This document shows positions 19,198 to 39,648 of a stretch of DNA of 47,159 nt, in pieces. Source of the stretch: an uncultured Lachnospiraceae bacterium (GTDB lineage: Bacteria > Bacillota > Clostridia > Lachnospirales > Lachnospiraceae). Position 1 is the first letter of the stretch, and each line of letters begins with the position of its first letter. The position numbers were made by a program, and so were the translations under genes. Where the stretch lies: the NCBI GenBank assembly GCA_900314255.1, contig OMUP01000208.1, positions 1 to 47,159 of the forward strand, written 5' to 3'. The notes beneath the pieces are model-generated. The model saw nothing but the letters and a program-made list of their open reading frames with translations, was not told where the DNA came from and did no database searches.

Positions 19198-19268
19198 CAG
19201 GCTGGCTGGCCTGGTCTGGAGGCCGGGCTGGCTGGCCCGGTCTGGAGGCGGGGCTGGCTGGCCCGGTC
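19198..19268 (+). repeat. 26-bp GC-rich tandem repeat, about 2.7 copies
   Basis: Copies at 19198-19223 and 19224-19249, plus a partial copy at 19250-19268, share the core GGCTGGCTGGCC followed by CGGTCTGGAGGC. It lies between the end of the GntR gene and array A. Confidence 0.85.
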
Positions 19269-19620
19269 AGCAAAATTAGCTTGTTTGTGATTTCCGGTGA
19301 CACTTTTGGCCCGTGGCGGCCGGGGTGGTCAGCGGAAATTCGTTTTTTCTTGCTTCCGGTGACGTTTTGGGCCGAAACAGGCCGGCTGGGACATCGGAAA
19401 TAACCGGATTTTTGATTCCCGCTGACGATGGACTTCCGGATGGGCTGATATTGTCATCGGAATAGCCTGCTTTTCTGGTTTCCGCTGACACAGGATTTCC
19501 AGATGGGTTAATTTGTGCCCGGAATAACTTGTTTTTCTGGTTTCCGATGACGTTCGTCCCCGAACGGATGGGGCGGCTCATCGGAAAGCTTGTTTTGGAT
19601 CAATTTTGTTGAATTCCGAG
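19267..19620 (+). repeat. Palindromic repeat array A (6 units, about 62 bp apart)
   Basis: Units begin at 19267, 19328, 19390, 19453, 19515 and 19577, spaced 61, 62, 63, 62 and 62 bp. Each has a left arm near GTCAYCGGAAA and a right arm near TTTCCGGTGAC, about 30 bp apart. The arms differ between units at one variable position (T, C or G) and are not always compensated. The sixth unit is degenerate on its right side. The array lies between the convergent GntR and pncB genes. From 19621 to the pncB terminator at 19785 I see nothing recognisable. Arrays B, C and D belong to the same family. Confidence 0.85.
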
Positions 19621-19784
19621 GTGGTTTGCCATAACTAATTCATTAAAAAGTTCCCTGCAGCCACATTGTGATGAATCCGGCGCTGGAAATCAGCTTGAAA
19701 GTTCATCAAAAAGCCTGACCACGTGCCTTCTGTGCTGAATTCCCGTCGCTGCCTGGCCCCGGCGTTCCCTGGTTTAAAGCAATT

Positions 19785-19824
19785 AAAAAGTACACCGGAA
19801 ACAAGAATCATGCTTCCGGTGTAC
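19785..19824 (-). terminator. Terminator of pncB
   Basis: Read on the minus strand, GTACACCGGAA pairs with TTCCGGTGTAC around a 13-base loop, followed by TTTTTAATT. Plus-strand arm positions are 19790-19800 and 19814-19824. The 13 bases CACCGGAAACAAG are identical to the start of array D units. Confidence 0.85.
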
Positions 19825-19872
19825 CTGGTCTTTTATTCTCTTTTATTCCTGTCCTGATTTTCTGCCTGAATC

Positions 19873-21318
19873 TCAGACTTTCGCGTACTCGTCGAGCAGG
19901 CTCTTCTTGACGTCGTAAAGGCGCTGGCTCAGGTCGACGTGTACCTGGTGCGGGTTCACGAGGCGCTTGCTTTCGTCCCAGAGCGTCGCCATTTCCTTCT
20001 TGCAGTACGCCTGAATGTCCATGACCTTCGGCGACTTGTAGATGCACTGGCCGGACTTGAAGATCGGCACGAGGATCTCGCGCAGCGTGTATTCACCCGG
20101 CTTGAGAAGCGTCTTCTTCCAGGTCTCGACCGGATCGAAGAGCAGAAGCGGCTGATTGCCGTCGATCTTCTCGTCTGCGAGGGCGATCAGGTCGGCCACG
20201 ATCATGCCGTTGCGGTCGTACACGCGGTAAATGGTCTTGTTGCCCGGATTCGTGATCTTCTCGGAATTCTCAGAGAGCTTGATCTTCGGGACGAAATTGC
20301 CGTCGTCGCCCATGATGGCGGCGAGCTTGTAGACACCGCCGAAGGCCGGCGTATCCTTGGATGTGATCAGGTTGGTGCCCACACCCCAGGAGTCGATTCT
20401 GGCGCCCTGCGTTTTCAGGGAAGAAATCAGATACTCGTCCAGATCCGAGCTTGCGGCGATCTTGGCGTCGGAGAAGCCGGCTTCGTCCAGCATCGCTCTC
20501 GCCTTCTTTGTCAGGTAGGCGAGGTCGCCGGAGTCGAGGCGGATGCCGTAGTTGTGGAGCGGAATGCCGGCTGCGCGCATTTCCTGGAATACCTGGATGG
20601 CGTGCGGAACACCGGACTTCAGCGTGTCATACGTGTCGACAAGAAGCGTGCAGGCATTCGGGTAGATCTTCGCGTACTCGCGGAATGCGGTCAGCTCGTC
20701 CGGGAAGCTCATGATCCAGCTGTGGGCGTGTGTGCCCATGACCGGAACGCCGAACATCTGGCCGGTGAGGACATTGGAGGTGCCGACGCAGCCTGCGATG
20801 ACAGCGGCTCTGGCGCCGTAGATACCGGCGTCCGGACCCTGCGCGCGGCGCAGACCGAATTCCATGATGCCGCCGCCATTTGCCGCGTAGACAATGCGCG
20901 CCGCCTTGGTGGCGATCAGGGACTGGTGATTGATGATGTTGAGAATCGTGGTCTCCAGAAGCTGGGCCTGCATGATCGGCGCGATGACCTTGACGATCGG
21001 CTCGCGCGGGAACATGACGGTGCCTTCCGGAATCGCGTAGATGTCGCCGGTGAAGCGGAAGGTGCGCAGATAGTCAAGGAAATCTTCCTCGAACAGGCCG
21101 GTGCTGCGAAGGTAGGCGATGTCCTCATCGGAAAAATGAAGATCGTTGATGTAGTCGATGACCTGTTCCAGGCCGCAGGAGATGGAATATCCGCCGTCAT
21201 CCGGGTTGCGCCGGTGAAACGCGTCGAATACGACGGTGCGGTTGTTGCCCGTCTTGAAGTATCCCTGCATCATGGTGAGCTCATACAGGTCGGTTAACAT
21301 GGTGAGATTTCTTGACAT
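19873..21318 (-). CDS. pncB: Nicotinate phosphoribosyltransferase
   Basis: A 481-residue enzyme of NAD salvage that joins nicotinate to PRPP to give nicotinate mononucleotide. LTDLYELTMMQGYF at the N-terminus, the loop MEFGLRRAQGPDAG, GTHAHSWIMSF with the His of the nicotinate phosphoribosyltransferase group, and GIRLDSGDLAYLTKKAR are all characteristic. I choose the start at 21318, giving MSRNLTMLTDLYEL, because GGAAGGAACG lies just upstream; a longer frame from 21360 lacks a ribosome binding site. It is the last gene of a minus-strand run and ends in its own hairpin terminator. Confidence 0.95.
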   Translation of the reverse strand: MSRNLTMLTDLYELTMMQGYFKTGNNRTVVFDAFHRRNPDDGGYSISCGLEQVIDYINDLHFSDEDIAYLRSTGLFEEDFLDYLRTFRFTGDIYAIPEGTVMFPREPIVKVIAPIMQAQLLETTILNIINHQSLIATKAARIVYAANGGGIMEFGLRRAQGPDAGIYGARAAVIAGCVGTSNVLTGQMFGVPVMGTHAHSWIMSFPDELTAFREYAKIYPNACTLLVDTYDTLKSGVPHAIQVFQEMRAAGIPLHNYGIRLDSGDLAYLTKKARAMLDEAGFSDAKIAASSDLDEYLISSLKTQGARIDSWGVGTNLITSKDTPAFGGVYKLAAIMGDDGNFVPKIKLSENSEKITNPGNKTIYRVYDRNGMIVADLIALADEKIDGNQPLLLFDPVETWKKTLLKPGEYTLREILVPIFKSGQCIYKSPKVMDIQAYCKKEMATLWDESKRLVNPHQVHVDLSQRLYDVKKSLLDEYAKV

Positions 21319-21363
21319 AACGTTCCTTCCGTGTCCGCTTTTGCGAACCGTTTTCTGCACATT

Positions 21364-21395
21364 CAGCCTGTCGGCGCAAATCTGCCGGCAGGCTG
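21364..21395 (-). terminator. Intercistronic stem-loop upstream of pncB
   Basis: CAGCCTG-T-CGGC at 21364-21375 pairs with GCCG-G-CAGGCTG at 21384-21395, with one internal mismatch. On the minus strand no U tract follows, so termination is doubtful; it could be an RNA-stabilising hairpin between the two genes. Confidence 0.5.
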
Positions 21396-21405
21396 AAAAA
21401 CACAG

Positions 21406-21900
21406 TTATTTGCTCTTTTTCGTGCTGGCGGTATCCTTGCTCTGCTCGCGAACGGTCTTTTCCGCCTTCTTCAGGCTTGCAGACAGACGGCCGGAGAGAC
21501 TCTTTTTCTTCGGAATCTCGGCCTTGCCGCCGCGGATCGACTTGATGCCGGTGAGGTAAATGCCGCTGATTTCGGCCTTGACCTGTGCCTTGACCGGAAC
21601 CGTGTCATACACATCCGGGTCGCAGAGCATCGTCATGATGCGGGGACCGATCTTGACCTTGACGACCGGCATCTTGCGGCCGCGGAGATATTTCGGAACC
21701 TGATCCATGACGGATTGCTGGAAACCGGCGTCTTTGAATTTCATTTTCTTTTTGTCGATGATCAGCATGGATACGACCTGCTTGGCCGCCTCGATCTGAT
21801 CCTGCTGGACAGCCTGCTTCTTGCGCAGACGGTTGCCGAGAATCACGAGAACAACGGTGACGGCGGCGAGTACGATGAGGACAATAGCCCAGACTGGCAT
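21406..21900 (-). CDS. Unknown membrane-anchored protein with basic tail
   Basis: A 164-residue protein I do not recognise. It begins MPVWAIVLIVLAAVTVVLVI, a single N-terminal membrane helix, followed by a cytoplasmic domain containing VSMLIIDKKKMKFKDA and VVKVKIGPRIMTMLCDPDVY. The C-terminal 40 residues are rich in Lys and Ser. I place the start at 21900 because AGGAGGTATCC lies just upstream; the longer frame to 22101 runs through the plsC terminator and is not credible. The LIIDKKKMKFKDA stretch may be a fold core, but no function is suggested. Confidence 0.75.
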   Translation of the reverse strand: MPVWAIVLIVLAAVTVVLVILGNRLRKKQAVQQDQIEAAKQVVSMLIIDKKKMKFKDAGFQQSVMDQVPKYLRGRKMPVVKVKIGPRIMTMLCDPDVYDTVPVKAQVKAEISGIYLTGIKSIRGGKAEIPKKKSLSGRLSASLKKAEKTVREQSKDTASTKKSK

Positions 21901-21930
21901 GAAAGGATACCTCCTGAAAATAAGTGCCGC

Positions 21931-21971
21931 AAAACCGGCTTCCGGCCTGCCTGTGTCAGGCCGGAAGCCGG
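21931..21971 (-). terminator. Strong terminator of plsC
   Basis: A perfect 15-bp stem (plus-strand arms 21935-21949 and 21957-21971, CCGGCTTCCGGCCTG) with a 7-base loop, followed on the minus strand by TTTTGCGG. Confidence 0.9.
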
Positions 21972-22006
21972 TAAGCGCGCATTTGGCATGATTATAACAC
22001 GAACCT

Positions 22007-22747
22007 TTATTTTTGCAATGAATTGAAAACTTTCTCCATCGAATCGTGAACCTGCGTGTGCAGCTGGTTCTGCGCGGCGCGGGGCATGCCAGCCGTTTCA
22101 ATGGCGGGGAGAATCGTCACGGTGGTCTTTGCACCTTTGACGCCGAACGGCTTCAGATCCTCGAACATCTCGCGGGTGCCGGTCTGCACGACCGGAACGA
22201 CCGGGAGGCCGGGCTTGGTGGCGAGCTTGAACGCGCCGCCCTTGAACTCAAGCATTCCGCCGCCTTTGTTGCGGGTCCCTTCCGGGAAGATGAGGACGGA
22301 GATGCCATTTTTCATGAGGGCAATGCCGTCGAGCACCATCTGGGCGCCGGCCCGGACGTTGCTGCGGTCCAGAAACAGGCAGTGGATGTTGCGCATCCAG
22401 GTGGAGAGCAGCGGAATGTGCTCCATTTCCTTCTTGGCCACGACGCTGATGCGCCCCGGCAGGATGCTCGCCAGAATGATGATGTCGAAGAAGCTGCGGT
22501 GGTTGCCCACATACAGCACCGCCTGATTTTCCGGGATGTTCTGCATGCCGGTGATCTGCGGCTTCACGCCGGCCAGATGCCACAGCACTTTGAGGGCGGA
22601 TTTTACGATCGGGTAGCAGAACGCGTCCTTTTTCTCCGGTGAGAAATGTCCGATCAGCGCCGCCACCGGCAGCAGAATCAGACTGGCCGCGAAGAATATT
22701 ACAAGCCAGACGAGGCACAGGAGTGTCCGCAGAGGATTGCAGGTCAT
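22007..22747 (-). CDS. plsC: 1-acyl-sn-glycerol-3-phosphate acyltransferase
   Basis: A 246-residue membrane acyltransferase that adds the second acyl chain to lysophosphatidate to make phosphatidate. An N-terminal hydrophobic region (residues about 8-32) is followed by the HX4D motif NHRSFFD (His83, Asp88) and the substrate-binding FPEGTR (154-159). PVVPVV near residue 185 is the usual third motif. The start at 22747 follows AAGGAG with normal spacing. A strong terminator lies 35 bp past its stop, separating it from the unknown membrane-anchored gene. Confidence 0.95.
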   Translation of the reverse strand: MTCNPLRTLLCLVWLVIFFAASLILLPVAALIGHFSPEKKDAFCYPIVKSALKVLWHLAGVKPQITGMQNIPENQAVLYVGNHRSFFDIIILASILPGRISVVAKKEMEHIPLLSTWMRNIHCLFLDRSNVRAGAQMVLDGIALMKNGISVLIFPEGTRNKGGGMLEFKGGAFKLATKPGLPVVPVVQTGTREMFEDLKPFGVKGAKTTVTILPAIETAGMPRAAQNQLHTQVHDSMEKVFNSLQK

Positions 22748-22818
22748 AACAGGCTCCTTCCGGCGGCGTGATGGTGCCGCCCTTCCTTTTGTTAAATGTA
22801 TTGTAGCGCATCCGCGCC

Positions 22819-23958
22819 TTATTGTGTCAGAGTTACGAGGGCGGAAGCGCCGGAAGATTTCGTGATTTCGCCGTCCGTCGTGACGAAGACAGCCTCCGTG
22901 TCCGGGAGAGACTCAACCAGGGCCAGCCCGGCCTCCTGCCCGAGGCAGAAGCACACCGTGCTCAGCGCATCCGCGTCTGCAGACGACGCCGTCAGGATGG
23001 TCACCTGCGACAGCCCCGACTGGCACGGGTACCCCGTGGCCGGGTCGAGAATGTGGTAGTAGAAGTTTCCGTCCGCATCCGTAAACTGCCGCTCATAATT
23101 GCCGCTGGACACGATGCTCAGATCCGCCGCGCGCACCGTGGCCAGATACGTGTCGCTGCTGGCAAATGGCTTCCGGATCCCGATGGTATAATCTTCAGCT
23201 CCCGTGATCTCTCCGCCGCTTTCTGTTCCGCCGGACTTGCCGCCGAATACCAGAACGTTGCCGCCGAGATTGATGACGGCCCGCCGGATGCCCTTTTCCA
23301 GAAGATCCTCGTGCAGACGGTCCGCGATGTAGCCCTTGGCCACGGCTCCGAGATCAAGGACATATCCCGCCGGCATGGTCACGGTCCGGTCCGCCTCTGG
23401 GTCCGATGCGTCCTTCGGGCTCACCGAGATTTTTGAGTCGTCCACGAAGGCAAGCGCCGCCTGAATGTCCGCCTCGTCCGGGACAGCCGGGTTATCGGAG
23501 GTGAAGTCCCACAGACGGCTCACAGCCCCGATGCTGACCGCAAAGGCGCCGCCGCTCATGGAAGAATAGTCGAGGGCGGTCTGCAGGCAGTCGGCGAGCT
23601 GCCACGGAACTTTGTCGGTCAGTCCGGCGTTCAGGTTCCAGAGGGCACTGCCTTCTTTCTGCATCGAGAAAATATCCTCGTACGCCTCACAGTCCGAAAT
23701 GACCTCTTTCACAGCCGCCTTCGTCTTCTGACCGGAATAGTCGCCGGCCAGCGTTTCGTAGGCGGAGATTGAAATGATGGTGTCAAGCGAAAAGGCCTGC
23801 TCTGTGATCGGAGATGACAGAGTCCTGCGGCATCCGGTGAGGAAGGTGCAGGGCAGCAAAAAGACAAGAAAAGTGAGACAGGCAAGAAAAGACGCGCCTG
23901 TTCTCCGGAACTTTCCGCACGGTTTTTGGGAAGAACTGTTTTGTGCCGGTATGTTCAT
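22819..23958 (-). CDS. apbE: FAD:protein FMN transferase lipoprotein (ApbE family)
   Basis: A 379-residue exported lipoprotein. A hydrophobic signal segment ends in LTGC, giving lipidated Cys43. ApbE enzymes split FAD and attach FMN to Thr in proteins such as Rnf/Nqr or extracellular electron-transfer flavoproteins. Family motifs are present: SLDTIISISAY, GAVSRLWDF, DLGAVAKGYIADRLHE, INLGGNVLVFGG and YYHILDPATGYP. The ribosome binding site is weak (GAGAGAG). It is divergent from the FKBP-type lipoprotein gene. No flavinylated target protein is encoded in this window, so its substrate is elsewhere. Confidence 0.95.
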   Translation of the reverse strand: MNIPAQNSSSQKPCGKFRRTGASFLACLTFLVFLLPCTFLTGCRRTLSSPITEQAFSLDTIISISAYETLAGDYSGQKTKAAVKEVISDCEAYEDIFSMQKEGSALWNLNAGLTDKVPWQLADCLQTALDYSSMSGGAFAVSIGAVSRLWDFTSDNPAVPDEADIQAALAFVDDSKISVSPKDASDPEADRTVTMPAGYVLDLGAVAKGYIADRLHEDLLEKGIRRAVINLGGNVLVFGGKSGGTESGGEITGAEDYTIGIRKPFASSDTYLATVRAADLSIVSSGNYERQFTDADGNFYYHILDPATGYPCQSGLSQVTILTASSADADALSTVCFCLGQEAGLALVESLPDTEAVFVTTDGEITKSSGASALVTLTQ

Positions 23959-24009
23959 ACGCTCTCTCTGATTCAGCTGCTTGTGTGCATTTTACATATC
24001 CTTGCTAAG

Positions 24010-24034
24010 TATAATCCGCAGCCTGTGATATAAT
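24010..24034 (+). promoter_or_regulatory. Two -10-like boxes upstream of the FKBP-type lipoprotein gene
   Basis: TATAAT occurs at 24010-24015 and again at 24029-24034; the second is preceded by TGA, giving an extended -10. No -35 at ideal spacing is evident. The second box leaves a leader of about 35 bases that holds the AGGAAGGA ribosome binding site. Confidence 0.55.
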
Positions 24035-24075
24035 CAATGAAATCGGCTTTGAAAATCAGGAAGGACAATCTCTTT

Positions 24076-25341
24076 ATGAAAAGAAAAAACATTCTGGCGG
24101 CAGCTGCCGCACTGCTCCTGTGCGTACCGCTGACAGCCTGCGGAAACAGTTCCGATGGCACCGCTTCGTCTTCAGCCACAACGGCAAGTGCCGCAGCAAC
24201 AGCGGCCGCGACGGCGGAAGCGATCGTATCGCCGGATCAGGTGACCGAGGACACCGACACGTCAAACCGGGCGCTGCAGGCTTCGGAGTACGACAGCTTC
24301 TACCAGATGACGGCGGCCGTCTACAAAAAGTATGTGACGCTTCCGGAATACAAGGGCATCGCGGTGACGGTGGACCGTTCCTCGGAGGACGTGAGCGATG
24401 ACACCGTGGAGGAGACGATTCAGTCGATGCTCGAGGATTCCGCATCGACAGTGGATGTGACGGCGGACGGTGTGACCCAGAGCGGCGACACCATCACGCT
24501 GGATTATCAGGGACTGCTGGACGGCGTGGCATTTGACGGCGGCACGGCCACCGATCAGACATACACCATCGGCTCCGGCAAGTTCATCTCGGATCTGGAC
24601 GAGGGCCTCGTGGGCCTGAAGGCCAATGTGCAGACCGACATCCCCTGCACCTTCCCGGACGACTATTCCTCGAGTGATCTGGCGGGCAAGTCGGTGATCT
24701 TCCGCGTGACCATCAAGAGCATCACCCGCAAGGACGTGCCGGAGCTCACCGATGCGTGGGTTCAGGCCAACGCCGCCAATTACAATTACACCGATGAGAC
24801 GACGGCTGACCAGTTCCGCCAGGCAGTGAAGGAAGAGCTGGTCTCTCAGAAAGTGGCGTCCAACGACAGCACCAAGTTCAAGGATATCCTGGCGACCATC
24901 GCCGACGGTCTGACCGTCGACAAATATCCGGAAAAAGAACTGACCAGCCTCACCAACACCATGGTGAACAATGTCAAGACACAGTACCAGAATTACGGCG
25001 CCTCGAGCGGCTACACCAGCTTTGACGGCTATCTGCAGGGAATGTACGGCATGGAAAATGAGGCGGCATTTACCGACTATGCCAGCACCTATGCGCAGAA
25101 CTACCTGCTGACCAAGATGATTGTGACGGAGATCGCCGACGCCGAGGACATTCATGTGACGGAAGAGGAGATCAACGATCTGGGCGAATCCCTGGCTTCT
25201 TACTACGGTTACGACGGATATGACACGATTATCAGCTCTCTGGGCAAAGAGATGAACTGCGAGGTCGGCTATGAGTATCTGTACGGCAAGGTGGAAGAAG
25301 TCGTGAATGCCGCAGCGGTTGAGACGACGACAAATGGCTGA
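24076..25341 (+). CDS. Lipoprotein peptidyl-prolyl isomerase, trigger-factor-like
   Basis: A 421-residue surface lipoprotein. The signal peptide MKRKNILAAAAALLL ends in LTAC (lipid Cys22), then comes a Ser/Thr/Ala linker. An FKBP-type isomerase domain covers about residues 137-205 (GDTITLDYQGLLDGVAFDGG, then TIGSGKFISDLDEGL). The rest resembles the helical C-terminal chaperone arms of trigger factor. The ribosome-docking N-terminal domain of true trigger factor is absent, so this is probably an extracytoplasmic folding factor. I start at 24076, behind AGGAAGGA, not at the earlier in-frame ATG 24037, which sits in the promoter region. The next gene begins inside its last codons. Confidence 0.88.
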   Translation: MKRKNILAAAAALLLCVPLTACGNSSDGTASSSATTASAAATAAATAEAIVSPDQVTEDTDTSNRALQASEYDSFYQMTAAVYKKYVTLPEYKGIAVTVDRSSEDVSDDTVEETIQSMLEDSASTVDVTADGVTQSGDTITLDYQGLLDGVAFDGGTATDQTYTIGSGKFISDLDEGLVGLKANVQTDIPCTFPDDYSSSDLAGKSVIFRVTIKSITRKDVPELTDAWVQANAANYNYTDETTADQFRQAVKEELVSQKVASNDSTKFKDILATIADGLTVDKYPEKELTSLTNTMVNNVKTQYQNYGASSGYTSFDGYLQGMYGMENEAAFTDYASTYAQNYLLTKMIVTEIADAEDIHVTEEEINDLGESLASYYGYDGYDTIISSLGKEMNCEVGYEYLYGKVEEVVNAAAVETTTNG

Positions 25342-26095
25342 GTCAGAGTATCACACACACGAATTTCCGCCTTTTTACCGGCCGGATTCCAGAATCCTGA
25401 TTCTGGGCTCGTTCCCGTCGGTCAAGTCCCGCGAGGCCGGATTTTACTACGGCCATCCGCAGAACCGGTTCTGGCCGCTTCTGGCCTGCATCTTTCATGA
25501 GCCGCGGCCGGGCAGCCAGAGAGAAAAGGAAGCGCTGCTGGCGCGGAACCACATCGCACTGTGGGACGCCATCGAGTCCTGCGAGATCCGCGGCAGTTCG
25601 GACGCGAGCATCCGTGAGGCCCGTTCCACGGACATCCCGGCGTTGCTGGCGCAGACACAGGTTCAGAAGATTGTCACCAACGGGAAGCTGGCGGACAAAT
25701 ACTACAAGAAGTACAACGAAGAACGGACCGACATTCCGGCGGTGTGCCTTCCGTCGACCAGCCCGGCCAACGCGGCGGTCCGCTTTCCGCAGCTCCTGGC
25801 GGCCTGGGAAAAGGAACTGCTGCTGCCTGTCCGGCTTCATCTGACGTTCACGGGCCGCGTGCAGCACGTGGGATTCCGCGTCACGGCCTTTGACACGGCA
25901 AGAAGGCTCGGCCTGACCGGCTGGGTCAGAAACTGCCTGCGGTCTGATATGACCGAGGCGGAGGTTCAGGGAAGCCCGGAGCAGGTGGAAACATTTGTCA
26001 GGGAAATGCGGGGCGTGCCCCGGTTCGCCGTCCGGAACGTGGCCAGGTACGAGTGCCCGCTGAAGGACGACGAGACGTATTTTGACATTCGGTGA
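25334..26095 (+). CDS. Two-domain protein: hypoxanthine-type DNA glycosylase fused to acylphosphatase
   Basis: A 253-residue protein with two recognisable halves. Residues 1 to about 160 resemble the uracil-DNA glycosylase superfamily, closest to DNA-deoxyinosine (HDG, family 6) enzymes: ILILGSFPSVKSREAGFYYG, PQNRFWPLL and the C-terminal active-site motif LPSTSPAN. Residues about 165-253 are a complete acylphosphatase: FTGRVQHVGFRVTAFDTARR carries the catalytic Arg and LTGWVRN the catalytic Asn. The usual GVGFR is HVGFR here. I start at ATG 25334, which overlaps the preceding gene by 8 bp; its ribosome binding site is weak. The two activities have no obvious link, and the combination may be a lineage fusion. 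Confidence 0.88.
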   Translation: MAESEYHTHEFPPFYRPDSRILILGSFPSVKSREAGFYYGHPQNRFWPLLACIFHEPRPGSQREKEALLARNHIALWDAIESCEIRGSSDASIREARSTDIPALLAQTQVQKIVTNGKLADKYYKKYNEERTDIPAVCLPSTSPANAAVRFPQLLAAWEKELLLPVRLHLTFTGRVQHVGFRVTAFDTARRLGLTGWVRNCLRSDMTEAEVQGSPEQVETFVREMRGVPRFAVRNVARYECPLKDDETYFDIR

Positions 26096-26109
26096 AATCT
26101 GTACGGATT

Positions 26110-26153
26110 CCTTCCGGTGCGGCGCGCAAAGCTGCGCCGGGAGGGATTTTTCT
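26110..26153 (+). terminator. Terminator after the glycosylase-acylphosphatase gene
   Basis: CCTTCCGGTGCGGC at 26110-26123 pairs, with G-U pairs, with GCTGCGCCGGGAGG at 26131-26144 and is followed by ATTTTTCT. Confidence 0.85.
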
Positions 26154-26228
26154 GTCTGCGGGCCATATATTTGCGCTTCAGACGGGGGTAATATTCACAA
26201 CATTGCAAAAACGTTTCCCTGCCGGGAC

Positions 26229-26258
26229 TTGACGGGGCGGCGGGCGCCGCTGTATGAT
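26229..26258 (+). promoter_or_regulatory. Promoter of the metK riboswitch transcript
   Basis: TTGACG at 26229-26234 and TATGAT at 26253-26258 with an 18-bp spacer, about 30 bp upstream of the aptamer. Confidence 0.75.
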
Positions 26259-26289
26259 TCCAATCGTAAATTTCATAGAGGTTTTGTCC

Positions 26290-26415
26290 CTTATTTCGAG
26301 TGGTGGAGATACATAGGATCTGTGAAGCCCGGCAACCCGCGCCAGCATCTGCAGGACGCGAAGGTGCCAAACCTGAGCGAACAACCGTTTCCAGGATGGT
26401 TCGAGCAATAAGAGG
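26290..26415 (+). promoter_or_regulatory. SAM-I riboswitch (S-box) controlling metK
   Basis: Closing stem P1 is formed by CTTATT (26290-) and AATAAG (to about 26413). The conserved S-box core is present: GTGGTGGAGATACA, TGAAGCCCGGCAACC, and AAGGTGCCAAACCTG with the GAGCGAACAA stretch. Family knowledge: SAM binding stabilises P1 and allows the downstream terminator to form, shutting off metK when SAM is plentiful. Confidence 0.95.
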
Positions 26416-27884: not shown

Positions 27885-28795
27885 GTCATCGGAAAGCAAG
27901 CTGGACGACGTTTCCGGTGCGCTTCCGGGGCTTGTGGGCAGGCGGGTGTCACCGGAAAGCAAGCTGGGTAGTGTTTCCGGTGCGCTTCCGGGGCTTACTG
28001 GCAGGCGGTAATCATCGGAAAACAAGCCAGGCGACAAATCCGGTGCGCCCTGAGGCGGTCCGGGCTGGCGGCAGTCATCGGAAAGCAAGTTTGTGGAATT
28101 TCCGATGCGCCCTGAGGCGGTTTGGGCAGCCGACAGTCATCGGGAAGCAAGTTCGTGATATTTCCGGTGCTCTTTTCAGCCATTTTCTGCTCGTTATGTC
28201 ATCGGGATTGAGTGAAGCGCCTGCATAGATGACGTCTTCCCCGAATTCAGGGCAAAAAGAGCACCGGAAACTTGTTATTTTGTAATTTTGCTGACTAGCA
28301 AGCCGCGCTTCTGACGAAAAGGTCATCGGAGACCCACCAACTTGTTAATTTTGCTGCCCGACCAGCCCCGCTCTCGGAAGGTTTCACCGGTAATCCATAA
28401 TCTGGCCATTTCCGGTGCGCTCTGAGGCGGCCCGACAGCCGTCAATCACCGGAAATCAAGTTGGGCAGCATTTCCGGTGCGCCCTGCGGTGGTCCGGGCT
28501 TCCGGCAATCATCGGAAAGCAAGTTTGCGGCATTTCCGGTGATTGTTTTTGCCCTTCCCTGCTCGTTATGTCATCGGGATTGAGTGAAGCGCCTGCATCG
28601 ATGACGTCTTCCCCGAATTCAGGGCAAAAAGAGCACCGGAAACCTGCTTTTTTGTATTTTTGCTGACCAGCAACCCTGCTTCTGACGAAAAAGTCATCGG
28701 GGACCCGCCAACTTGTTAATTTTGTTGCCCGACCAGCCCTTATCCCTGGCAGGAATCACCGGAAATCCACAAACTTATCATTATCGCTGCCTGGG
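27885..28795 (+). repeat. Palindromic repeat array B (15 units, about 62 bp apart)
   Basis: Units begin at 27885, 27948, 28011, 28074, 28136, 28198, 28260, 28322, 28383, 28445, 28508, 28570, 28632, 28693 and 28755; every interval is 61-63 bp. Arms are near GTCAYCGGAAA and TTTCCGGTGCG. Spacers fall into related groups, for example GCCCTGAGGCGGTCCGGGC and relatives. The last interval units (6 to 9) reappear as units 12 to 15, 372 bp downstream. The flank 27813-27884 is GC-rich with no gene. After 28796 a C/T-rich stretch with repeated CCCTGGCAGGCTCTTTT-like segments leads to the nuclease stop codon. Confidence 0.9.
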
Positions 28796-28890: not shown

Positions 28891-29709
28891 TCACAGGCAA
28901 TATTCGCGGATCATGGCATTGATCTCGCCTGTTCCGAGCGGGCTGACCGATGTCTCTTCTGTAATAATCAGCTGCTCACCTGGATAAATCTGGTTCTGCT
29001 GGTAATCCTTAAGCCTTCTGACAGCGTTCCTGGCGTAGTCATGGTCGTCCATCATGCCGCGGTGTTCCCAGTACAGAACAGTTCTCTTTCGCACATTCAA
29101 AATCGTGAAATCCGGATAAATGGTGCCGCTGCGCAGCGTCAGCGGGCATTCATATTTATATGGAATCTTTCTCCGGTAGAGCGCATTTGCAATATTGAGC
29201 TCCGATTTCGAACGGACATGTTCCCCTTGCTCTGTGATAAAATCCGACTTCAAATCCGAAATTGATTTCCCCTCATATGGCGTTTCAAGCCAGTTGTGCA
29301 CGAGCACTTCATCAGGCAGGTCCGAAGCCATGACAAATTTCCGGGCTCTTTCCGGAAATTTCAGATATAAATTCTGAATCTGCTCCGGGATCAAGGCGCC
29401 TGTCTGCAGCAGTTTCTCAAGTGCTCTGATTTCCTGCCTGATCAGGCGCAGAGATTTCTCATCATACGATTTCTGAAGATACGTTTTAATTTTCTTCTCG
29501 TCCCGGACGGAGATATACACGCCGGTCCGATCCGAGGCGCTGCTTCGCAGATAATACATCACCCTGCCGCCGCGGGTAATAAGATGAATTTTCCCCTGCG
29601 GATAATTTTGTGACCGCGCCTCCAGTATGTTCTGCACGCGCTTCAGCTCTGCAAGACGCTTCCTCGCCTGCAGATATACACCGGCTTCTTTCATTATGTT
29701 GCTTTTCAT
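28891..29709 (-). CDS. PD-(D/E)XK nuclease-like protein between arrays B and C
   Basis: A 272-residue protein of an uncharacterised family I associate with Clostridia. The N-terminal half is helical and charged (about residues 8-110, possible coiled coil). The C-terminal half resembles a PD-(D/E)XK nuclease core: HVRSKSELNIANALYRRKI (Glu170), then GTIYPDFTIL (Asp200) and VLYWEHRGMMDD (Glu215). The last motif has E-H-R where canonical enzymes have E-x-K, so catalysis is uncertain. The start at 29709 follows GGAGGTGC; the frame extends upstream to 29817 without a better start. The gene is visibly more AT-rich than its neighbours and is flanked by repeat arrays of one family, both suggesting a mobile or acquired element. 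No signal peptide. Confidence 0.8.
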   Translation of the reverse strand: MKSNIMKEAGVYLQARKRLAELKRVQNILEARSQNYPQGKIHLITRGGRVMYYLRSSASDRTGVYISVRDEKKIKTYLQKSYDEKSLRLIRQEIRALEKLLQTGALIPEQIQNLYLKFPERARKFVMASDLPDEVLVHNWLETPYEGKSISDLKSDFITEQGEHVRSKSELNIANALYRRKIPYKYECPLTLRSGTIYPDFTILNVRKRTVLYWEHRGMMDDHDYARNAVRRLKDYQQNQIYPGEQLIITEETSVSPLGTGEINAMIREYCL

Positions 29710-29947: not shown

Positions 29948-30720
29948 GTCAGCGGAAAACAAGCCAGGCGACAAATCCGGTGCGCCCTGAAGCGTTCCGG
30001 ACAGCCGTCAATCATCGGAAAGCAAGTTCGTGGCATTTCCGGTGCTCTTTTCAGCCCCTTCTTGGTCATTCTGTCATCGGGATTGAGCAAAAAGCCTGCG
30101 TAGATGACGTCATCCCCGAATATAGGGCAAAAAGAGCATCGGAAACTTGCTTTTTTGTAATTTTGCTGACCAGTAAACCCTGTCTCCGGCAAAAACGTCA
30201 CCGGGAATTCACTAACTTGCTAATTTTGCTGCCCGGGCAGCCCTGATTTCCAAGATGTGTCACCGGAAATCAACAAGAACTTGTTTTTAGCTGCCTTTCG
30301 GCTGCCGGGAAACTGTCGGGCTATTGTTGACAGGCTGTCGGGAAGCTGCCGGAAATTGTCGGCAGGTCGAGGAATCACCGGGAATTCCAAAAAGCCGGAT
30401 CCCGATGCGTATTTTTAGTGAATTTACGGATAGCGTCAGCAAAATTGACTTGAAAACAGGATCCCGATGCGCAATTCAGGCAAAATTCCGTGACAGAGGC
30501 ACCAAAAGCAAGAAAGAATGGCAATCCCGATGACAAGAAGCCTGTGATGGGGCTGAAAAAAGCATCGGGATTACCACAAACTTGTTTTCCGCTGACTACC
30601 GGTCTGCTAGGCAAGCTATGGCGTCATCGGGATTTGCAAAACTGATAATTCCGATGCCATCCCAAGCCCGCCGGGGGCCGAAATGTCATCGGAATTCAAG
30701 TTATTTTAATTTCCGGTGCA
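29948..30720 (+). repeat. Palindromic repeat array C (about 12 units)
   Basis: Units begin at 29948, 30011, 30073, 30135, 30197 and 30259, then at 30374, 30435, 30498, 30561, 30623 and 30685. Intervals are 61-63 bp except a 115-bp gap filled by degenerate CTGTCGGG-type repeats (about 30300-30370). Units 1-5 match array B units 3 and 5-8 closely. Units after the gap drift toward arms CATCGGGA and TCCCGATG. The array lies between the nuclease start and the mreB promoter. The 29710-29947 stretch upstream is AT-rich and should hold the nuclease promoter, which I cannot pin down. Confidence 0.87.
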
Positions 30721-34236: not shown

Positions 34237-34946
34237 AGACCCCATGGCAAATGAAGGACGCAGCGCTTGATATCCTCTTTCCGCCGGTCTGCCCGGTGTG
34301 CGGCCGGCCGTCCCGCTCGTACTTTCACCCGGAGTGCGAGGAAAAGCTTGTTCCCGTGCGCGGCGCGCGCTGTGCCGTCTGCGGAAAGCAGCTGAATGAC
34401 GAGCGGGAGAGTCTGTGTCTTGACTGCCGGAGAAAACGCCACGAATTCATCCAGGTGATTTCGGTGCTTCAGTATACCGAGGCGGCCAGACAGTGCATCT
34501 ACCGCTTTAAATATAAGAACAAACGCGAATACGCAAAGCCGCTCGCGTACCTGATGTGGAAATATGCGGCGCGCCGCATCCGCTTCTACCGGCCGGAGGT
34601 GATCGTGCCAGTGCCGATGTATGCGGCCAAAAAGCGGCGCCGCGGCTATAATCAGACGGAGCTCCTGGCGCAGGCGCTCTCAAGTGTCAGCGGTATTGAA
34701 TGCGCGCCGGATGCACTCGTGCGCACGCGCGCCACGCGGCCGATGAAGGAACTGACGGCGGGAGAGCGCGCGGCCAACCTCGCCGGTGCCTTTGAACCGG
34801 CCGGCGCGCTGCCCTGGAAACGGGTTCTGCTGTTAGACGATATTTACACCAGCGGGAGCACGCTGGACGCCTGTGCCGCGGCCCTCAAGGCGGGCGGCGT
34901 GCAGGAAGTCTACGGCATCTGCCTGTGCACGGGCGAGGGATTTTAG
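34233..34946 (+). CDS. comF: ComF family phosphoribosyltransferase-like protein
   Basis: A 237-residue ComF protein, related to competence and DNA processing in Gram-positive bacteria. The N-terminal zinc-binding part has CPVCGRPS, then CAVCGKQL and CLDCRRKR, giving four-plus Cys. The C-terminal half is a type I phosphoribosyltransferase fold, with VIVPVPMYAAKKRRRGYNQTELLA and the PRPP-binding VLLLDDIYTSGSTLDAC. The start is TTG 34233 in a TTGA overlap with recD2, with GGGAGG ten bases upstream; ATG 34251 is the alternative. It is translationally coupled to recD2. Confidence 0.92.
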   Translation: MKTPWQMKDAALDILFPPVCPVCGRPSRSYFHPECEEKLVPVRGARCAVCGKQLNDERESLCLDCRRKRHEFIQVISVLQYTEAARQCIYRFKYKNKREYAKPLAYLMWKYAARRIRFYRPEVIVPVPMYAAKKRRRGYNQTELLAQALSSVSGIECAPDALVRTRATRPMKELTAGERAANLAGAFEPAGALPWKRVLLLDDIYTSGSTLDACAAALKAGGVQEVYGICLCTGEGF

Positions 34947-34976
34947 GAGACAGGTAAGCATTTTCCAAGGAAGTTC

Positions 34977-35006
34977 TTGACGGAAAGAAGACCGTTGTGA
35001 TATAGT
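34977..35006 (+). promoter_or_regulatory. Promoter of the rpmG-secE-nusG-rplKA operon
   Basis: TTGACG at 34977-34982 and TATAGT at 35001-35006 with an 18-bp spacer; TGA just before the -10 makes it extended. This is the strongest promoter before the ribosomal gene run. Confidence 0.85.
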
Positions 35007-35009
35007 AGA

Positions 35010-35110
35010 ACGGCTATGGAAGCGGCCTTTTTTTTATGCGCTTAAAACGCAAAGGGAAAGGCAGGGCTCCGGGATTTGCCTTTTCCGGGGCTTAACCAAA
35101 TCTTATGAAA
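35010..35110 (+). promoter_or_regulatory. rpmG leader with early U tract and hairpin
   Basis: About 100 bases between promoter and rpmG. A short weak hairpin ending in a T8 run lies at about 35013-35034. Then GGGAAAGGCA (about 35054-35063) can pair with TGCCTTTTCC (about 35080-35090). This may be an attenuator or processing site, but no known leader family is recognised. Confidence 0.5.
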
Positions 35111-35124
35111 AGGAGATGGAAGTT

Positions 35125-35274
35125 GTGCGGGTAAAAATCACACTGGCATGCACAGAATGCAAGCAGCGCAATTATGACACGACGAAGGATAAGAGAACGC
35201 ATCCGGAGAGACTGGAACTGAAGAAGTACTGCAGATTCTGCAGAAAGCATACGCTGCACAGAGAGACAAAGTAA
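35125..35274 (+). CDS. rpmG: 50S ribosomal protein L33
   Basis: A 49-residue protein. [17 protein letters not shown] followed by [17 protein letters not shown] is bacterial L33, with the four Cys of the zinc-binding form (CxxC pairs). The start is GTG 35125, nine bases after AGGAG; an in-frame ATG at 35116 touches the same AGGAG and cannot use it. It lies directly before secE, the usual Bacillota order rpmG-secE-nusG. No tRNA-Trp gene lies in between. Confidence 0.95.
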
Positions 35275-35284
35275 GGACAGACTT

Positions 35285-35497
35285 ATGGCAGAATCCAAAA
35301 AGAAGGCTGTCAAGGACAGCAAAGTCAAAAGGTTCTTCAAGAATGTAAGTCTGGAATTCCAGAAGATCGTATGGCCTTCCGGCAGGCAGCTCACAAAGGA
35401 ATCGACGGCGGTGCTGATTGTTTCGGTAGCACTGGGAGCTGTAATCGCACTGATCGACTTCGGCCTGCGCGCCGGAATCGAAGTGCTCATCCGCTGA
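35285..35497 (+). CDS. secE: Protein translocase subunit SecE
   Basis: A 70-residue single-span membrane protein that stabilises SecY in the Sec translocon. The charged amphipathic N-terminus contains VSLEFQKIVWPSGRQLTKES, the SecE signature, followed by the membrane helix VLIVSVALGAVIALIDFGL. It starts 10 bp after rpmG behind AAGGAC and lies just before nusG, the standard gene order. Confidence 0.97.
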   Translation: MAESKKKAVKDSKVKRFFKNVSLEFQKIVWPSGRQLTKESTAVLIVSVALGAVIALIDFGLRAGIEVLIR

Positions 35498-35513
35498 GCA
35501 GGGGAGAAAAGCC

Positions 35514-36083
35514 ATGAGCGAGGAAGAAAAGAATACGGGAGCACAGCCGCAGTGGTATGTGGCGCATACGTATTCCGGCTATGAGAACAAAGTCAAGTCG
35601 GATATCGAGCAGACCGTAAAGAACCGCGAAGATCTGAAGGGAAGAATCGTCGCGGCTGCTGTCCCGACTGAAAAGGCGACAGTGGTCAAGGACGGAAAGT
35701 CAAGAACGGTGGACCGCAAACTGTTCCCGGGTTATGTGTACGTCAAGATGATTCAGGACGACCAGACCTGGTACGTTGTGCGCAACACCAACGGAGTGAC
35801 GGGATTTGTCGGCCCGGGGTCAAAGCCGCAGCCGCTTTCGGCGGATGAGGTCAGACAGCTGGGACTTGACGGACCGGAAGAGGCGGAAGCTGAACCGGTT
35901 GTCGAGTTCGCCGGCAGCGTGGGCGACAAGGTACGGATTATCTCGGGCGCATGGAGCGGATATGACGCCGTGATCCGGGAGATCAACAACAGCCGCCAGA
36001 CGCTTCAGGTAGGCGTCGAAGTATTCGGACGTGAGACACCTCTCACGATCGGATTCAAGGACGTCGAGATGATCGAGAAGTAA
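35514..36083 (+). CDS. nusG: Transcription elongation and antitermination factor NusG
   Basis: A 189-residue factor that binds RNA polymerase and couples transcription to translation. The NGN domain covers about residues 12-125 ([42 protein letters not shown]). The KOW domain at about 135-185 contains [18 protein letters not shown]. The linker is acidic ([13 protein letters not shown]). It lies between secE and rplK as in most bacteria. Confidence 0.97.
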
Positions 36084-36103
36084 CAGCATTCGCTGCTCCG
36101 TTT

Positions 36104-36145
36104 CACATGTGGGAGGCGCGGGCACGCGCCGCAACCACCACTTAT
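36104..36145 (+). promoter_or_regulatory. L11 leader hairpin
   Basis: GGCGCG (36115-36120) pairs with CGCGCC (36125-36130) around GGCA, and flanking GTGGGA and ACCACCAC can extend it. A similar GTGGGAGG...ACCACTT arrangement precedes rplA (about 36648-36685). These are probably ribosomal-protein leader structures. Confidence 0.55.
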
Positions 36146-36165
36146 TAACCAGGAGGTGCCACAAA

Positions 36166-36591
36166 ATGGCTAAGAAAATTACAGGATATATCAAGCTGCA
36201 GATTCCTGCCGGAAAGGCAACACCGGCTCCGCCGGTCGGCCCGGCACTCGGACAGCATGGCGTCAACATCGTTGAATTTACCAAGCAGTTCAACGCGAAG
36301 ACAGCAGATAAAGGGGATATGATCATCCCGGTTGTCATTACGGTTTACGCTGACAAGAGCTTCAGCTTCATCACGAAGACTCCGCCGGCAGCCGTTCTGA
36401 TCAAGAAGGCCTGCAAGCTGCAGAAGGCATCGGGCGAACCGAACAAGAACAAGGTCGCACAGCTCTCAAAGGAAGATCTGAAGAAGATTGCCGAGACGAA
36501 GATGCCTGACCTCAATGCCAACACGCTGGAAGCCGCTGAATCCATGATCCGCGGTACAGCAAGAAGCATGGGTGTCACGGTAGAGGAATGA
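36166..36591 (+). CDS. rplK: 50S ribosomal protein L11
   Basis: A 141-residue protein of the GTPase-associated centre. [20 protein letters not shown] and [21 protein letters not shown] are the L11 N-terminal signatures, and the 23S-binding C-terminal domain ends with [12 protein letters not shown]. The start at 36166 follows AGGAGGTG. It is followed by rplA in the usual order. Confidence 0.98.
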
Positions 36592-36692
36592 TCATGAACA
36601 GAGGGGATAAGGAAGGACGCGTGACGTCCGGCCTCATCCGCTAAACGGTGGGAGGAAATTCCCATTCCGATACGACCACTTGGAGGTAGATA

Positions 36693-37388
36693 ATGAAAAG
36701 AGGCAAGAAGTACGTTGAGGCGGCGAAACTGATCGACCGCGCAACGCAGTATGAAGCAGCCGACGCTGTCAAGCTCGTGAAGCAGACAGCAACTGCTAAA
36801 TTTGATGAGACAGTCGAAGTTCACATCCGCACAGGCTGCGACGGCCGTCATGCCGATCAGCAGATCCGCGGCGCTGTCGTTCTTCCGCACGGAACCGGCA
36901 AGAAGGTCCGCGTTCTCGTATTTGCCAAGGGCGCCAAAGCCGATGAGGCAGAGGCAGCCGGCGCAGATTACGTTGGCGCTGAGGAGCTGATTCCGAAGAT
37001 CCAGAAGGAAGGCTGGCTGGATTTCGACGTTGTTGTTGCAACCCCGGACATGATGGGTGTTGTAGGACGTCTTGGCCGTGTCCTGGGCCCGAAGGGCCTG
37101 ATGCCGAACCCGAAGGCCGGCACCGTTACGATGGACGTTACCAAGGCTGTTCACGACATTAAAGCCGGTAAGATCGAGTATCGTCTGGACAAGAGCAATA
37201 TCATCCACGTTCCGGTCGGCAAGGCTTCCTTCACCGAGGAGCAGCTCGCAGACAACTTCCAGGCACTTATGAATGCCATCGTGAAGGCAAAGCCTTCAAC
37301 CGTCAAGGGCGCTTATCTGAAGAGCATCACGCTCACCACAACGATGGGCCCGGGCGTCAAGGTCAGCACCGCCAAGTATGTTGGCTGA
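36693..37388 (+). CDS. rplA: 50S ribosomal protein L1
   Basis: A 231-residue protein of the L1 stalk, a known translational repressor of its own operon in other bacteria. [14 protein letters not shown], the RNA-binding [20 protein letters not shown] loop and [17 protein letters not shown] are diagnostic. The start follows TTGGAGG. A new promoter begins just after its stop, so rplJ and rplL form a separate unit. Confidence 0.98.
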
Positions 37389-37412
37389 GGCAGACCTGTC
37401 GAAGGTTCATGA

Positions 37413-37441
37413 TTGACATTCGATAGATCGAGGTGTAGAAT
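37413..37441 (+). promoter_or_regulatory. Promoter of rplJ-rplL
   Basis: TTGACA at 37413-37418 and TAGAAT at 37436-37441 with a 17-bp spacer, 25 bp after the rplA stop. Confidence 0.88.
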
Positions 37442-37477
37442 ACACCACGTCGGCTGAAAAGCCGGCACAAAGGATAT

Positions 37478-37650
37478 ATAATTTTACCTGAGACAGCTGG
37501 TCCCGAAAGGGTCAAAGAGAAATCGCCCGCCGAGGAGAACCGGAAGTTACGCTTTCGGTTTGCAGAAAAAGTGGCCCCGGCCGCTTTTCTGAAATGTCTG
37601 AATTTTCAGACCCCTCCGGCTTCAGGCCTGCGAGGGGTCTTTTTTTCGGG
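37478..37650 (+). promoter_or_regulatory. Ribosomal L10 leader with terminator
   Basis: The segment from CCTGAGACAGCTGG through CCGCCGAGGAGAACC fits the L10 leader, where L10(L12)4 binds and represses rplJL. It ends in a strong hairpin, AGACCCCTC and GAGGGGTCT (about 37608-37643), with TTTTTTT, which is either part of the attenuation mechanism or a regulated terminator. Confidence 0.85.
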
Positions 37651-37698
37651 TAGGATTACCATCCTTAAAAATTTTGTGGATAAGGAGGTAAAGCAAGC

Positions 37699-38199
37699 AT
37701 GGCAAAGGTTGAGATCAAAAAGCCGATCGTAGACGAAATCGCTGCCAACATGAAAGATGCACAGGGCGTTGTTGTTGCAAAATACCAGGGCATCACAGTA
37801 GAGCAGGACACGAAGCTGCGCAGACAGATGCGCGAGGCTGGCGTGATCTACAAGGTCTACAAGAACACGCTTGTGAAGAAAGCAATTGCCGGTACAGAGT
37901 TCGAGGGACTCGCTGATTCCCTGGAAGGACCGACCGCTGTTGCAATCAGCAAGGATGACGCAACAGCTGCGGCAAGAGTTCTGGCTAATTTCGCCAAAGA
38001 GGCACCGTGCCTTGAGCTCAAGGCAGGCGTCGTGGAAGGCAAGTTCTGCGATGCAAAGGCAATCGCAGAAATCGCAGCAATCCCGAGCAGAGATGTACTT
38101 CTCTCCAGACTTCTGGGAAGCTTCCAGTCCCCGATGGCCAATTTCGCACGTGTCATCAAGCAGATCGCCGAGAAGAAGGGCGAGGAACCGGCAGCCTGA
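37699..38199 (+). CDS. rplJ: 50S ribosomal protein L10
   Basis: A 166-residue base of the ribosomal stalk that binds L7/L12 dimers and, in complex with them, its own leader RNA. DAQGVVVAKYQGITVEQDTKLRR, VIYKVYKNTLVKKAI and the C-terminal L7/L12-binding helix are typical. The start follows AAGGAGG. It is followed by rplL. Confidence 0.98.
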   Translation: MAKVEIKKPIVDEIAANMKDAQGVVVAKYQGITVEQDTKLRRQMREAGVIYKVYKNTLVKKAIAGTEFEGLADSLEGPTAVAISKDDATAAARVLANFAKEAPCLELKAGVVEGKFCDAKAIAEIAAIPSRDVLLSRLLGSFQSPMANFARVIKQIAEKKGEEPAA

Positions 38200-38297
38200 G
38201 AAAGGCAGCCTGATGGCGGCATTCCGTAACCGATGTGCCGCATGACAAATGGCATCCGCCCGCGCGGCTGCCGCATCATTTGAAAAGGAGAAAAATC

Positions 38298-38660
38298 ATG
38301 ACTACACAGGAAATCATCGAGGCCATCAAGGGCCTGTCTGTTACAGAACTGAATGACCTGGTTAAGGCTTGCGAGGAAGAGTTCGGCGTTTCCGCATCCG
38401 CAGGTGTTGTTGTTGCCGGCCCGGCTGCTGCTGCTCCGGAAGAAGAGAAGACCGAGTTCGACGTTGAGCTGACTGAGATCGGCCCGAACAAGATCAAGGT
38501 TATCAAGGTTGTTCGTGAGATCACCGGCCTTGGCCTGAAGGATGCTAAGGACCTCGTTGAGGCAGCTCCGAAGGTTGTAAAGGAAGGCGTTGACAAGGCA
38601 ACTGCTGAAGATATGAAGAAGAAGATCGAAGAGCAGGGCGCTAAGGTTACCCTCAAGTAA
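38298..38660 (+). CDS. rplL: 50S ribosomal protein L7/L12
   Basis: A 120-residue stalk protein. The N-terminal dimerisation part is [20 protein letters not shown], then an Ala/Gly/Pro hinge, then the factor-binding C-terminal domain [20 protein letters not shown] and [16 protein letters not shown]. The start at 38298 follows AAAGGAG. A terminator follows, and rpoB does not come next as it does in most bacteria. Confidence 0.98.
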
Positions 38661-38701
38661 TTTATACCGCTTACCACTTCAATTTGATCGAACGTATGGA
38701 A

Positions 38702-38734
38702 GCCCGTCCGGAAGAAATTCCGGGCGGGTTTTCT
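38702..38734 (+). terminator. Terminator of rplL
   Basis: GCCCGTCCGGAA pairs with TTCCGGGCGGG around GAAA, with one T-G pair, followed by TTTTCTTT. Confidence 0.9.
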
Positions 38735-38804
38735 TTGGCGCATAAGCCAGTGACGAAGCAGACGGCCAGCCGGCGCACTTTTGGGCTTGAATCTGGCCCG
38801 CCGT

Positions 38805-39648
38805 GCATCGGAAATGGGCTTGCTGGCTGATTCCGGTGCGCATTTTGGCCCGGGTAGGGCTCGCCGCGCATCGGAAATGGGCTTGCCGGCTGATTCCGGT
38901 GCGCTTTTTGGCTTGAATCGGGCGTGACGTGCATCGGAAATGGGCTTGCTGGCTGATTCCGGTGCATTTTTTGGCCCTAATCCGGTCTGCCGAGCACCGG
39001 AATCAGCCTCCTGGTGATTTCCGATGACAATCCGCCTTTAATCAGGCGTTTTGGCGCATCGGACTGACTTGATTTCCGGATTTTGCTGACTCCTGCTTCC
39101 CAGAGCACCCCGCCGGCGCACCGGAAGCAAGCTTGTTCCTCATTTCCGGTGACACGGGAAGTTCTGCTTTCGGCGAAGCGCATCGGAGGCAAGTTTGTTT
39201 CTCATTTTCGCTGATCCGGACGGTTACAAAGCCCGCCACGCATCGAGAGCAAGCTTGTTCTTCATTTCCGGTGCGCTGCCAGGTGTTTACCGGGCCTGCC
39301 GTGCACCGGAAAAGAACTTTCCGGCGATTCCGATGCGAATTTTGGCCCTAATCCGGCCTGCCACGCACCGGAATCAGCCTCCTGGTGATTTCCGATGACA
39401 ATCTGCCTTCAATCAGGCGTTTTGGCGCATCGGATTGACTTGATTTCCGGATTTTGCTGACTTCCCGGCCTCGAATCACCCCGCCGGCGCACCGGAAGCA
39501 AGCTTGTTCCTCATTTCCGGTGACCCGTCCGGTTCAGCTTCAGGCGAAACGCACCGGAAACAAGCTTGTTCCTCATTTCCGGTGACCCGGTCGGTTCAGC
39601 TTCAGCCGAAACGCATCGGAGACAAGCTTGTTCCTCATTTCCGCTGAT
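38805..39648 (+). repeat. Palindromic repeat array D (14 units, about 62 bp apart)
   Basis: Units with left arm GCAYCGGAA begin at 38805, 38868, 38931, 38994, 39056, 39118, 39180, 39240, 39303, 39365, 39427, 39489, 39551 and 39613. Intervals are 60-63 bp. Right arms are near TTCCGGTGCG or TTTCCGGTGAC. Half the units carry the internal palindrome CAAGCTTG. Units 4-6 and 10-12 are near-identical copies 371 bp apart. The array fills the space between rplL and the NCS2 permease, where rpoB would be expected. From 39649 to 39800 I see no gene, only AT-rich leader sequence toward the permease promoter. Confidence 0.9.

Follow-up and report, generated by a model that had tools for sequence, protein, structure and literature searches.

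A PD-(D/E)XK-like nuclease family of Lachnospiraceae often encoded beside palindromic arrays with whole-turn helical spacing

Repetitive extragenic palindromes (REP, with REPIN and bacterial interspersed mosaic elements, BIME) are dispersed between genes, often paired or clustered, and are tied to the gene of a DNA-processing enzyme, RAYT (TnpA-REP). RAYT is a Y1 HUH transposase, and REP sequences carry a GTAG/CGTC tag. Regularly spaced repeats beside a nuclease gene are also a feature of clustered regularly interspaced short palindromic repeats (CRISPR), while in type III toxin-antitoxin loci an array of repeats directly precedes the gene of a nuclease. Here, we analysed a 47,159-nucleotide stretch (the window) from an uncultured Lachnospiraceae bacterium (contig OMUP01000208.1), in which long arrays of alternating inverted half-sites lie between genes and two of them flank a gene for a PD-(D/E)XK-like nuclease.

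Two of three defining features of REP/RAYT that were tested are absent at this locus: the enzyme is PD-(D/E)XK-like rather than a Y1 transposase, and the half-site profile, CANCGGAAW, contains neither part of the tag. The third, a cognate gene by repeats that are also dispersed, applies by analogy if the nuclease is taken as that gene. The length of the alternating half-site arrays, their whole-turn period and their gene-specific motif further distinguish them from REP/RAYT. RAYT itself was considered as a partner of the arrays and rejected, as PF01797 was found in 6/9 array-positive and 5/11 array-negative genomes, with no clear association; the PF01797 transposases in the window's genome are open frames of 99–175 aa. 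Whereas CRISPR consist of direct repeats with unrelated spacers, the inverted half-sites here alternate at helix-turn spacing in many arrays, most of which lie at the 3' ends of genes. The initial annotation, made from the sequence alone, had named remnants of CRISPR or of a known insertion element as alternatives, and the arrays have the look of neither (no search for cas genes was made, and no insertion sequence library was used). The likeness to type III toxin-antitoxin loci lies in the array 5' of the nuclease gene, but the palindromes lack arm covariation in the window's genome, arrays are scattered genome-wide and the nuclease fold is probably different. Candidate defence nucleases of PADLOC (PDC-S68 and HEAT_CxxC_PDDEXK) feature a similar C-terminal nuclease domain, but their models range from 288 to over 1200 positions, compared with about 272 aa for the family here, and only about the last 90–120 positions of the ~1200-position PDC-S68 models match, with no full-length match. 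Searches of the open-access literature, including PMC8049555 and PMC3733652, yielded no description of such a nuclease–array system.

The arrays of the window and the nuclease gene are as follows:

19268–19621, no strand assigned: array A, 5 units with a period of about 62 bp, composed of inverted CANCGGAAW half-sites that alternate
27887–28789, no strand assigned: array B (15 units), which lies downstream of metK and borders the nuclease gene on its 3' side
28891–29709, minus strand: gene of the PD-(D/E)XK-like nuclease, flanked by arrays B and C; its frame is open from 29817 and encodes 272 aa when started at the ATG at 29709
29950–30293, no strand assigned: array C, run 1, 6 units, on the 5' side of the nuclease gene
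30376–30718, no strand assigned: array C, run 2, 6 units
38806–39646, no strand assigned: array D (14 units), flanked by the gene for ribosomal protein L7/L12 and by a gene at 39909

The initial annotation had not reported the nuclease gene that separates arrays B and C. When 432 predicted proteins encoded around arrays were compared, the two largest recurrent clusters were ABC and MATE transporters and the third was the nuclease family, which has no Pfam match. Its genes adjoin arrays in the window, in genomes G189, G206 and G043 and in a metagenome-assembled genome (MAG) from goat omasum, while a second copy in G189 lies some 4.6 kb from an array. For the window protein, neither Pfam nor NCBIfam provided a family, and loose thresholds did not change this. 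The Protein Data Bank holds no relative by sequence. In its C-terminal part, the protein matches PD-(D/E)XK models among the PADLOC candidates (PDC-S68, E 1.3e-28), and for the N-terminal half the four libraries used gave no convincing match. Residues W140, V165–K168, E170, Y186, E187, P199–F201, E215, H216, G218, Y225 and E252 are invariant in 33 aligned rows, and these include the catalytic-type residues E170, P199–D200 and E215. A weak match to a phage family of Holliday junction resolvases (E 3e-4) was obtained for one row. This is an undescribed family in gut Lachnospiraceae whose members are likely DNA-cutting enzymes, and many of them are encoded beside an array of their own.

The association extends to arrays with other motifs. 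A motif-free detector (at least five alternating inverted 9-mers, one mismatch, regular steps, period 44–110 bp) identified arrays at 38/75 nuclease loci of a first set, which represents 73 distinct places because two pairs of entries, L243/L202 and L244/L205, coincide, and at 25/40 loci of a second set. With the duplicate L244 dropped, arrays were present at 62 of the 113 distinct nuclease loci. The strict detector found no array at 20 control loci picked in genomes of the set or at 12 Y1 transposase loci from 11 genomes, and none of the 115 shuffled nuclease loci yielded one (0/75 in set 1 and 0/40 in set 2). The nearest array is 5' of the nuclease gene in 51/62 cases and within 500 bp in 60/62, with a median gap of 102 bp. 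A single array holds up to 29 half-sites, and the 62 arrays carry 60 different reference 9-mers. Several nuclease–array pairs can exist in one genome: five motifs were found at five of the nine G528 loci taken, and G043 features more than one motif at its nuclease loci. These motifs are also dispersed. For example, one nuclease-linked array of G026 matches 32 places, two of which are on that nuclease's contig, and three others that were checked have a period of 53–54 bp; the G043 motif AATTCAGCT occurs at three places in that genome, one adjoining its nuclease. Near dispersed 53-bp arrays of G026, two further arrays were observed, TCATCATGA with period 63 and AAACTGTTT with period 60 (L355 and L354).

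The periods of the 62 arrays fall into discrete classes of 51.6–54 bp (26 arrays), 61–65 bp (20), 73–75.3 bp (9), 84.3–86 bp (4), 94 bp (1) and 105.7 bp (1), with one outlier of 44 bp that lies 1 kb from its nuclease gene. A fit to all 62 gave n × 10.557 bp with an intercept of -0.05, where 57/62 periods are within 1.5 bp of a multiple (28% expected by chance; Rayleigh R 0.84). Set 1 alone gave 10.56 bp (R 0.86), and set 2 tested at that fixed value gave R 0.83. A helical repeat of 10.56 bp per turn is the value of B-DNA. The initial annotation had noticed the regular spacing in the window; this is kept elsewhere in a more general form, as an integer number of turns and not always 62 bp. On a tree of 36 nuclease rows (L244 and L219 left out), period class is clustered, with 11 changes compared with 18.0 when shuffled and 0/200 shuffles as low, and this clustering is carried by the 5- and 6-turn classes. 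In the clade of 12 rows that includes the window's nuclease and L183 (the CANC clade), the L-to-R distance is 23–25 bp in 12/12, whereas the R-to-L distance is 38–39 bp in ten rows, 49 bp in L177 and 60 bp in L187, which correspond to one and two turns more. A fixed L-to-R distance with an R-to-L distance that changes by turns points to a fixed binding unit whose linker is altered by whole turns. The 10-turn case, L226, departs from this pattern in a hand comparison with its relative L221.

Nuclease and arrays also co-occur between genomes. Within the genus, the nuclease is found in exactly the three array carriers (the window's genome G000, G043 and G397) and in none of the eight other genomes (p 0.006). 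In a family sample, the nuclease is present in 122/397 genomes, comprising 8/9 array-positive and 114/388 other genomes (p 0.0004), while a broader model applied to an order sample identified it in 27/48 genomes of the family and 22/247 genomes of other families. The CANCGGAAW motif itself is rarer. A three-half-site pattern matches 3/11 genomes of the genus, 9/397 of the family sample and 3/295 of the order sample, where all three belong to the same family and the 247 genomes of other families have no match; a reversed control pattern had no matches in the genome samples. Among named genomes, the motif is carried by Lachnospiraceae MAGs from goat omasum and yak rumen, by UMB00063, which has a weak array of four half-sites, and by a Blautia MAG. 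A PVC (Planctomycetes–Verrucomicrobia–Chlamydiae) MAG (L010) was rejected as a look-alike with a different palindrome, TTTCCGATGATCGGAAA.

Within the window, half-sites L (CANCGGAAW) and R (the reverse complement of L) alternate at 23 or 24 bp from L to R and 38 or 39 bp from R to L. The initial annotation had located four arrays with intervals of 60–63 bp, and both observations were confirmed (starts 19268, 27887, 29950 and 38806; measured period 60–63 bp). Its estimate of about 47 units was close, although we placed 46 L half-sites (A 5, B 15, C 6+6, D 14; a few degenerate half-sites placed by hand, guided by spacing) and array C consists of two runs. Arms about 30 bp apart had been reported; this longer spacing exists, but it is one of two arm spacings and the shorter had gone unnamed. 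The report that all arrays share one orientation has little meaning, because the unit is almost its own reverse complement and orientation is therefore unreadable. Terminator-like hairpins, which had been noted ahead of several arrays, are visible by eye before arrays B and D, but an automatic scan did not list them (D is near the edge of the scanned stretch). In 42 aligned units, half-site bases 1, 2 and 4 (C, A, C) are invariant or nearly so and base 3 is free. Array B contains two copies of a 372-bp block of six units (28039–28769) and array D repeats at about 371 bp, while a chain detector continues array A to 19712 via weak half-sites; the same detector found no chains in 263,940 bases of mononucleotide-shuffled sequence. 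Directly before array A is a 26-bp GC-rich tandem repeat of 2.8 copies (19195–19268). The terminator-like hairpin of NAPRT (minus strand, 19788–19826) has half-site-like arms, CACCGGAAA and CTTCCGGTG on the plus strand, 20 bp apart, so a half-site pair may double as a terminator there.

Across the window and 28 further stretches of the same genome, at least 37 array segments with 444 half-sites were collected, a lower bound because many segments are at contig ends and the genome model search scored 150 of 1517 candidates. These segments are intergenic, as the initial annotation had stated for the window: among the 36 with gene calls, overlap with a called gene never exceeds 60 bp, and the segments lie mostly at gene 3' ends. 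In other genomes, the overlap with a predicted frame exceeds 90 bp for 4/29 segments. Gene calls around arrays were crude, made within this analysis, and cruder still for the other genomes.

Comparison of one locus between genomes of the genus suggests that arrays and nuclease gene come and go. In the window's genome, 3.2 kb between metK and mreB hold array B, the nuclease gene and array C, whereas G043, with flanking proteins 97–98% identical, has about 660 bp there with a CAACG-type array and no nuclease. The motif-free detector found no array in the same interval of G359, G398 and G403 (130–210 bp) or G400 (about 470 bp); in G404, mreB was outside the stretch taken. At another site common to G000 and G043, both have arrays, but motif and length differ, so the motif appears to change between species. 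The states of the metK–mreB locus fit a stepwise gain. A homing endonuclease element would cut the uninterrupted site and have its gene copied into it; what bears on such a scheme here is these locus states, with an array but no gene in G043, both in G000 and no array in the other four genomes. A SAM (S-adenosylmethionine) riboswitch is located ahead of metK at 26288–26414.

The explanation that we consider probable is that the arrays are binding sites of the PD-(D/E)XK-like nuclease encoded adjacent to one of them, and that nuclease and dispersed arrays together form a REP/RAYT-like element. Each L-N14-R pair, with half-sites about 24 bp apart, would be one binding unit, probably for a nuclease dimer, and successive units would be held on the same helix face at 5 to 10 whole turns, letting bound neighbours cooperate. 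Arrays of the cognate motif would be scattered over the genome, mostly at gene 3' ends, with the gene in or beside one of them, and both would turn over. Arrays could spread when a nicked or cut site is repaired with another array as the template, a process that would also make motifs more uniform. The cell might tolerate an active nuclease if the enzyme is inhibited when bound, if it only nicks, or if arrays act as a sink. We infer each of these steps, namely binding by the nuclease, dimers, cleavage or nicking, array spread by repair, and mobility. We also lean towards regarding the system as a new class of element, in which a single-gene nuclease recognises its own palindromic array with integer-turn spacing, nuclease and motif co-diversify, and several independent pairs per genome can each seed arrays across the chromosome.

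Several observations weigh against this explanation. The strict detector found no array at 51/113 distinct nuclease loci, and G091, which is 98% complete, has arrays although no nuclease was found at E 1e-15. The canonical PD-(D/E)XK lysine, expected at position 217 after the WEH motif, is not conserved, and no DNA-binding domain was identified because the AlphaFold model (window protein and C-terminal frame of L009) is poor (predicted local distance difference test score 49). Taken by itself, the 7-turn class shows no clustering on the nuclease tree (116/500 shuffles as low), and p-values are generous because related nucleases are not independent data points. Within the window's own genome, an all-pairs spectrum hinted at quantised odd spacings (51, 73, 113–115 and 135 bp), but these are mostly scattered once only nearest neighbours count, so this weak signal was set aside. 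The survival of a cell with an active nuclease and hundreds of sites would also have to be accounted for.

The same arrays could be read as RNA. Tandem transcribed hairpins, acting as terminators, sponges or type III antitoxin-like RNA, would account for arrays B and D folding better than shuffles on both strands, and arrays often precede the nuclease gene in the manner of antitoxin repeats before type III toxins. We nevertheless regard this as highly improbable. Arm changes in L and R are independent in the window, and across its genome base 3 is matched in 47/205 L–R neighbours compared with 56.4 by within-array shuffle, and in 59/186 R–L neighbours compared with 55.9. As the arms vary without covariation there, the arrays look like DNA sites rather than RNA hairpins, and quantisation at 10.56 bp is a property of B-DNA. 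In other genomes, base 3 varies between arrays but is mostly uniform inside one (CATCGG, CAGCGG or CAACGG); a small L–R excess there (93/109 compared with 87.8, p 0.006, one of ten tests) could arise from homogenisation within arrays. The spacers also compensate, where 23 pairs with 39 and 24 with 38 or 39, 23 with 38 is rare, and the period is steadier than its parts. Fisher p-values for the two orders were 0.003 and 1e-6 in the window's genome and 2e-5 and 5e-8 in others, which are generous because units are related by duplication. Of the roles suggested in the initial annotation, phased protein binding therefore gains support from spacer compensation and the whole-turn period of 62 arrays, whereas hairpin RNA does not.

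Two further explanations keep the arrays as DNA sites. They could be operators and sinks, such that the nuclease represses itself via its 5' array and scattered arrays titrate or store it inactive, possibly for defence. The predominance of nearest arrays 5' of the gene agrees with this, phased operators suit cooperative repression, and the C-terminal domain resembles the candidate defence nucleases PDC-S68. It seems unlikely, however, as arrays of up to 29 half-sites along with dozens of distant arrays exceed the needs of autoregulation, and the annotated recurrent neighbour clusters are transporters and enzymes (no systematic search for defence neighbours was made). Alternatively, the arrays could be BIME-like host elements for chromosome organisation or transcription ends, bound by a housekeeping protein, with the nuclease as a passenger inserting into them. 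This would suit the flanking genes of the segments, which are mostly convergent or tandem (convergent for 12, tandem for 10 and divergent for 3 of the 25 segments, out of 36, with both flanks called), but it is quite improbable given that the motif changes from nuclease to nuclease, even inside one genome (G528 and G043), and that 8/11 genomes of the genus have neither arrays nor nuclease.

Other relatives of the nuclease were also encountered. The array-adjacent gene of the goat omasum MAG is broken into two frames (L009:3263–4105). Elsewhere, the window's genome has a match to roughly the final 63 residues of the nuclease (L204, G000:C73:7133–7321), probably a remnant. A viral origin was rejected, as none of 109 pattern matches among viral contigs was a relative. 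A phage collection yielded two distant nuclease matches; MT839528 (L352), a 4.2-kb faecal contig filed as phage, encodes a relative with 29% identity over 84% and has no detected array. Eight plasmid matches are confined to the C-terminal part of the query; their annotations are ATPase or helicase, and one has none.

If the proposed explanation is true, an unnamed enzyme-plus-repeat system is common in Lachnospiraceae and provides dozens of natural nuclease–motif pairs from which a DNA-recognition code could be learned. It would also offer a natural experiment on helical phasing, with spacers that seem to change in steps of whole turns, and may explain a class of intergenic repeats where assemblies of these genomes break.

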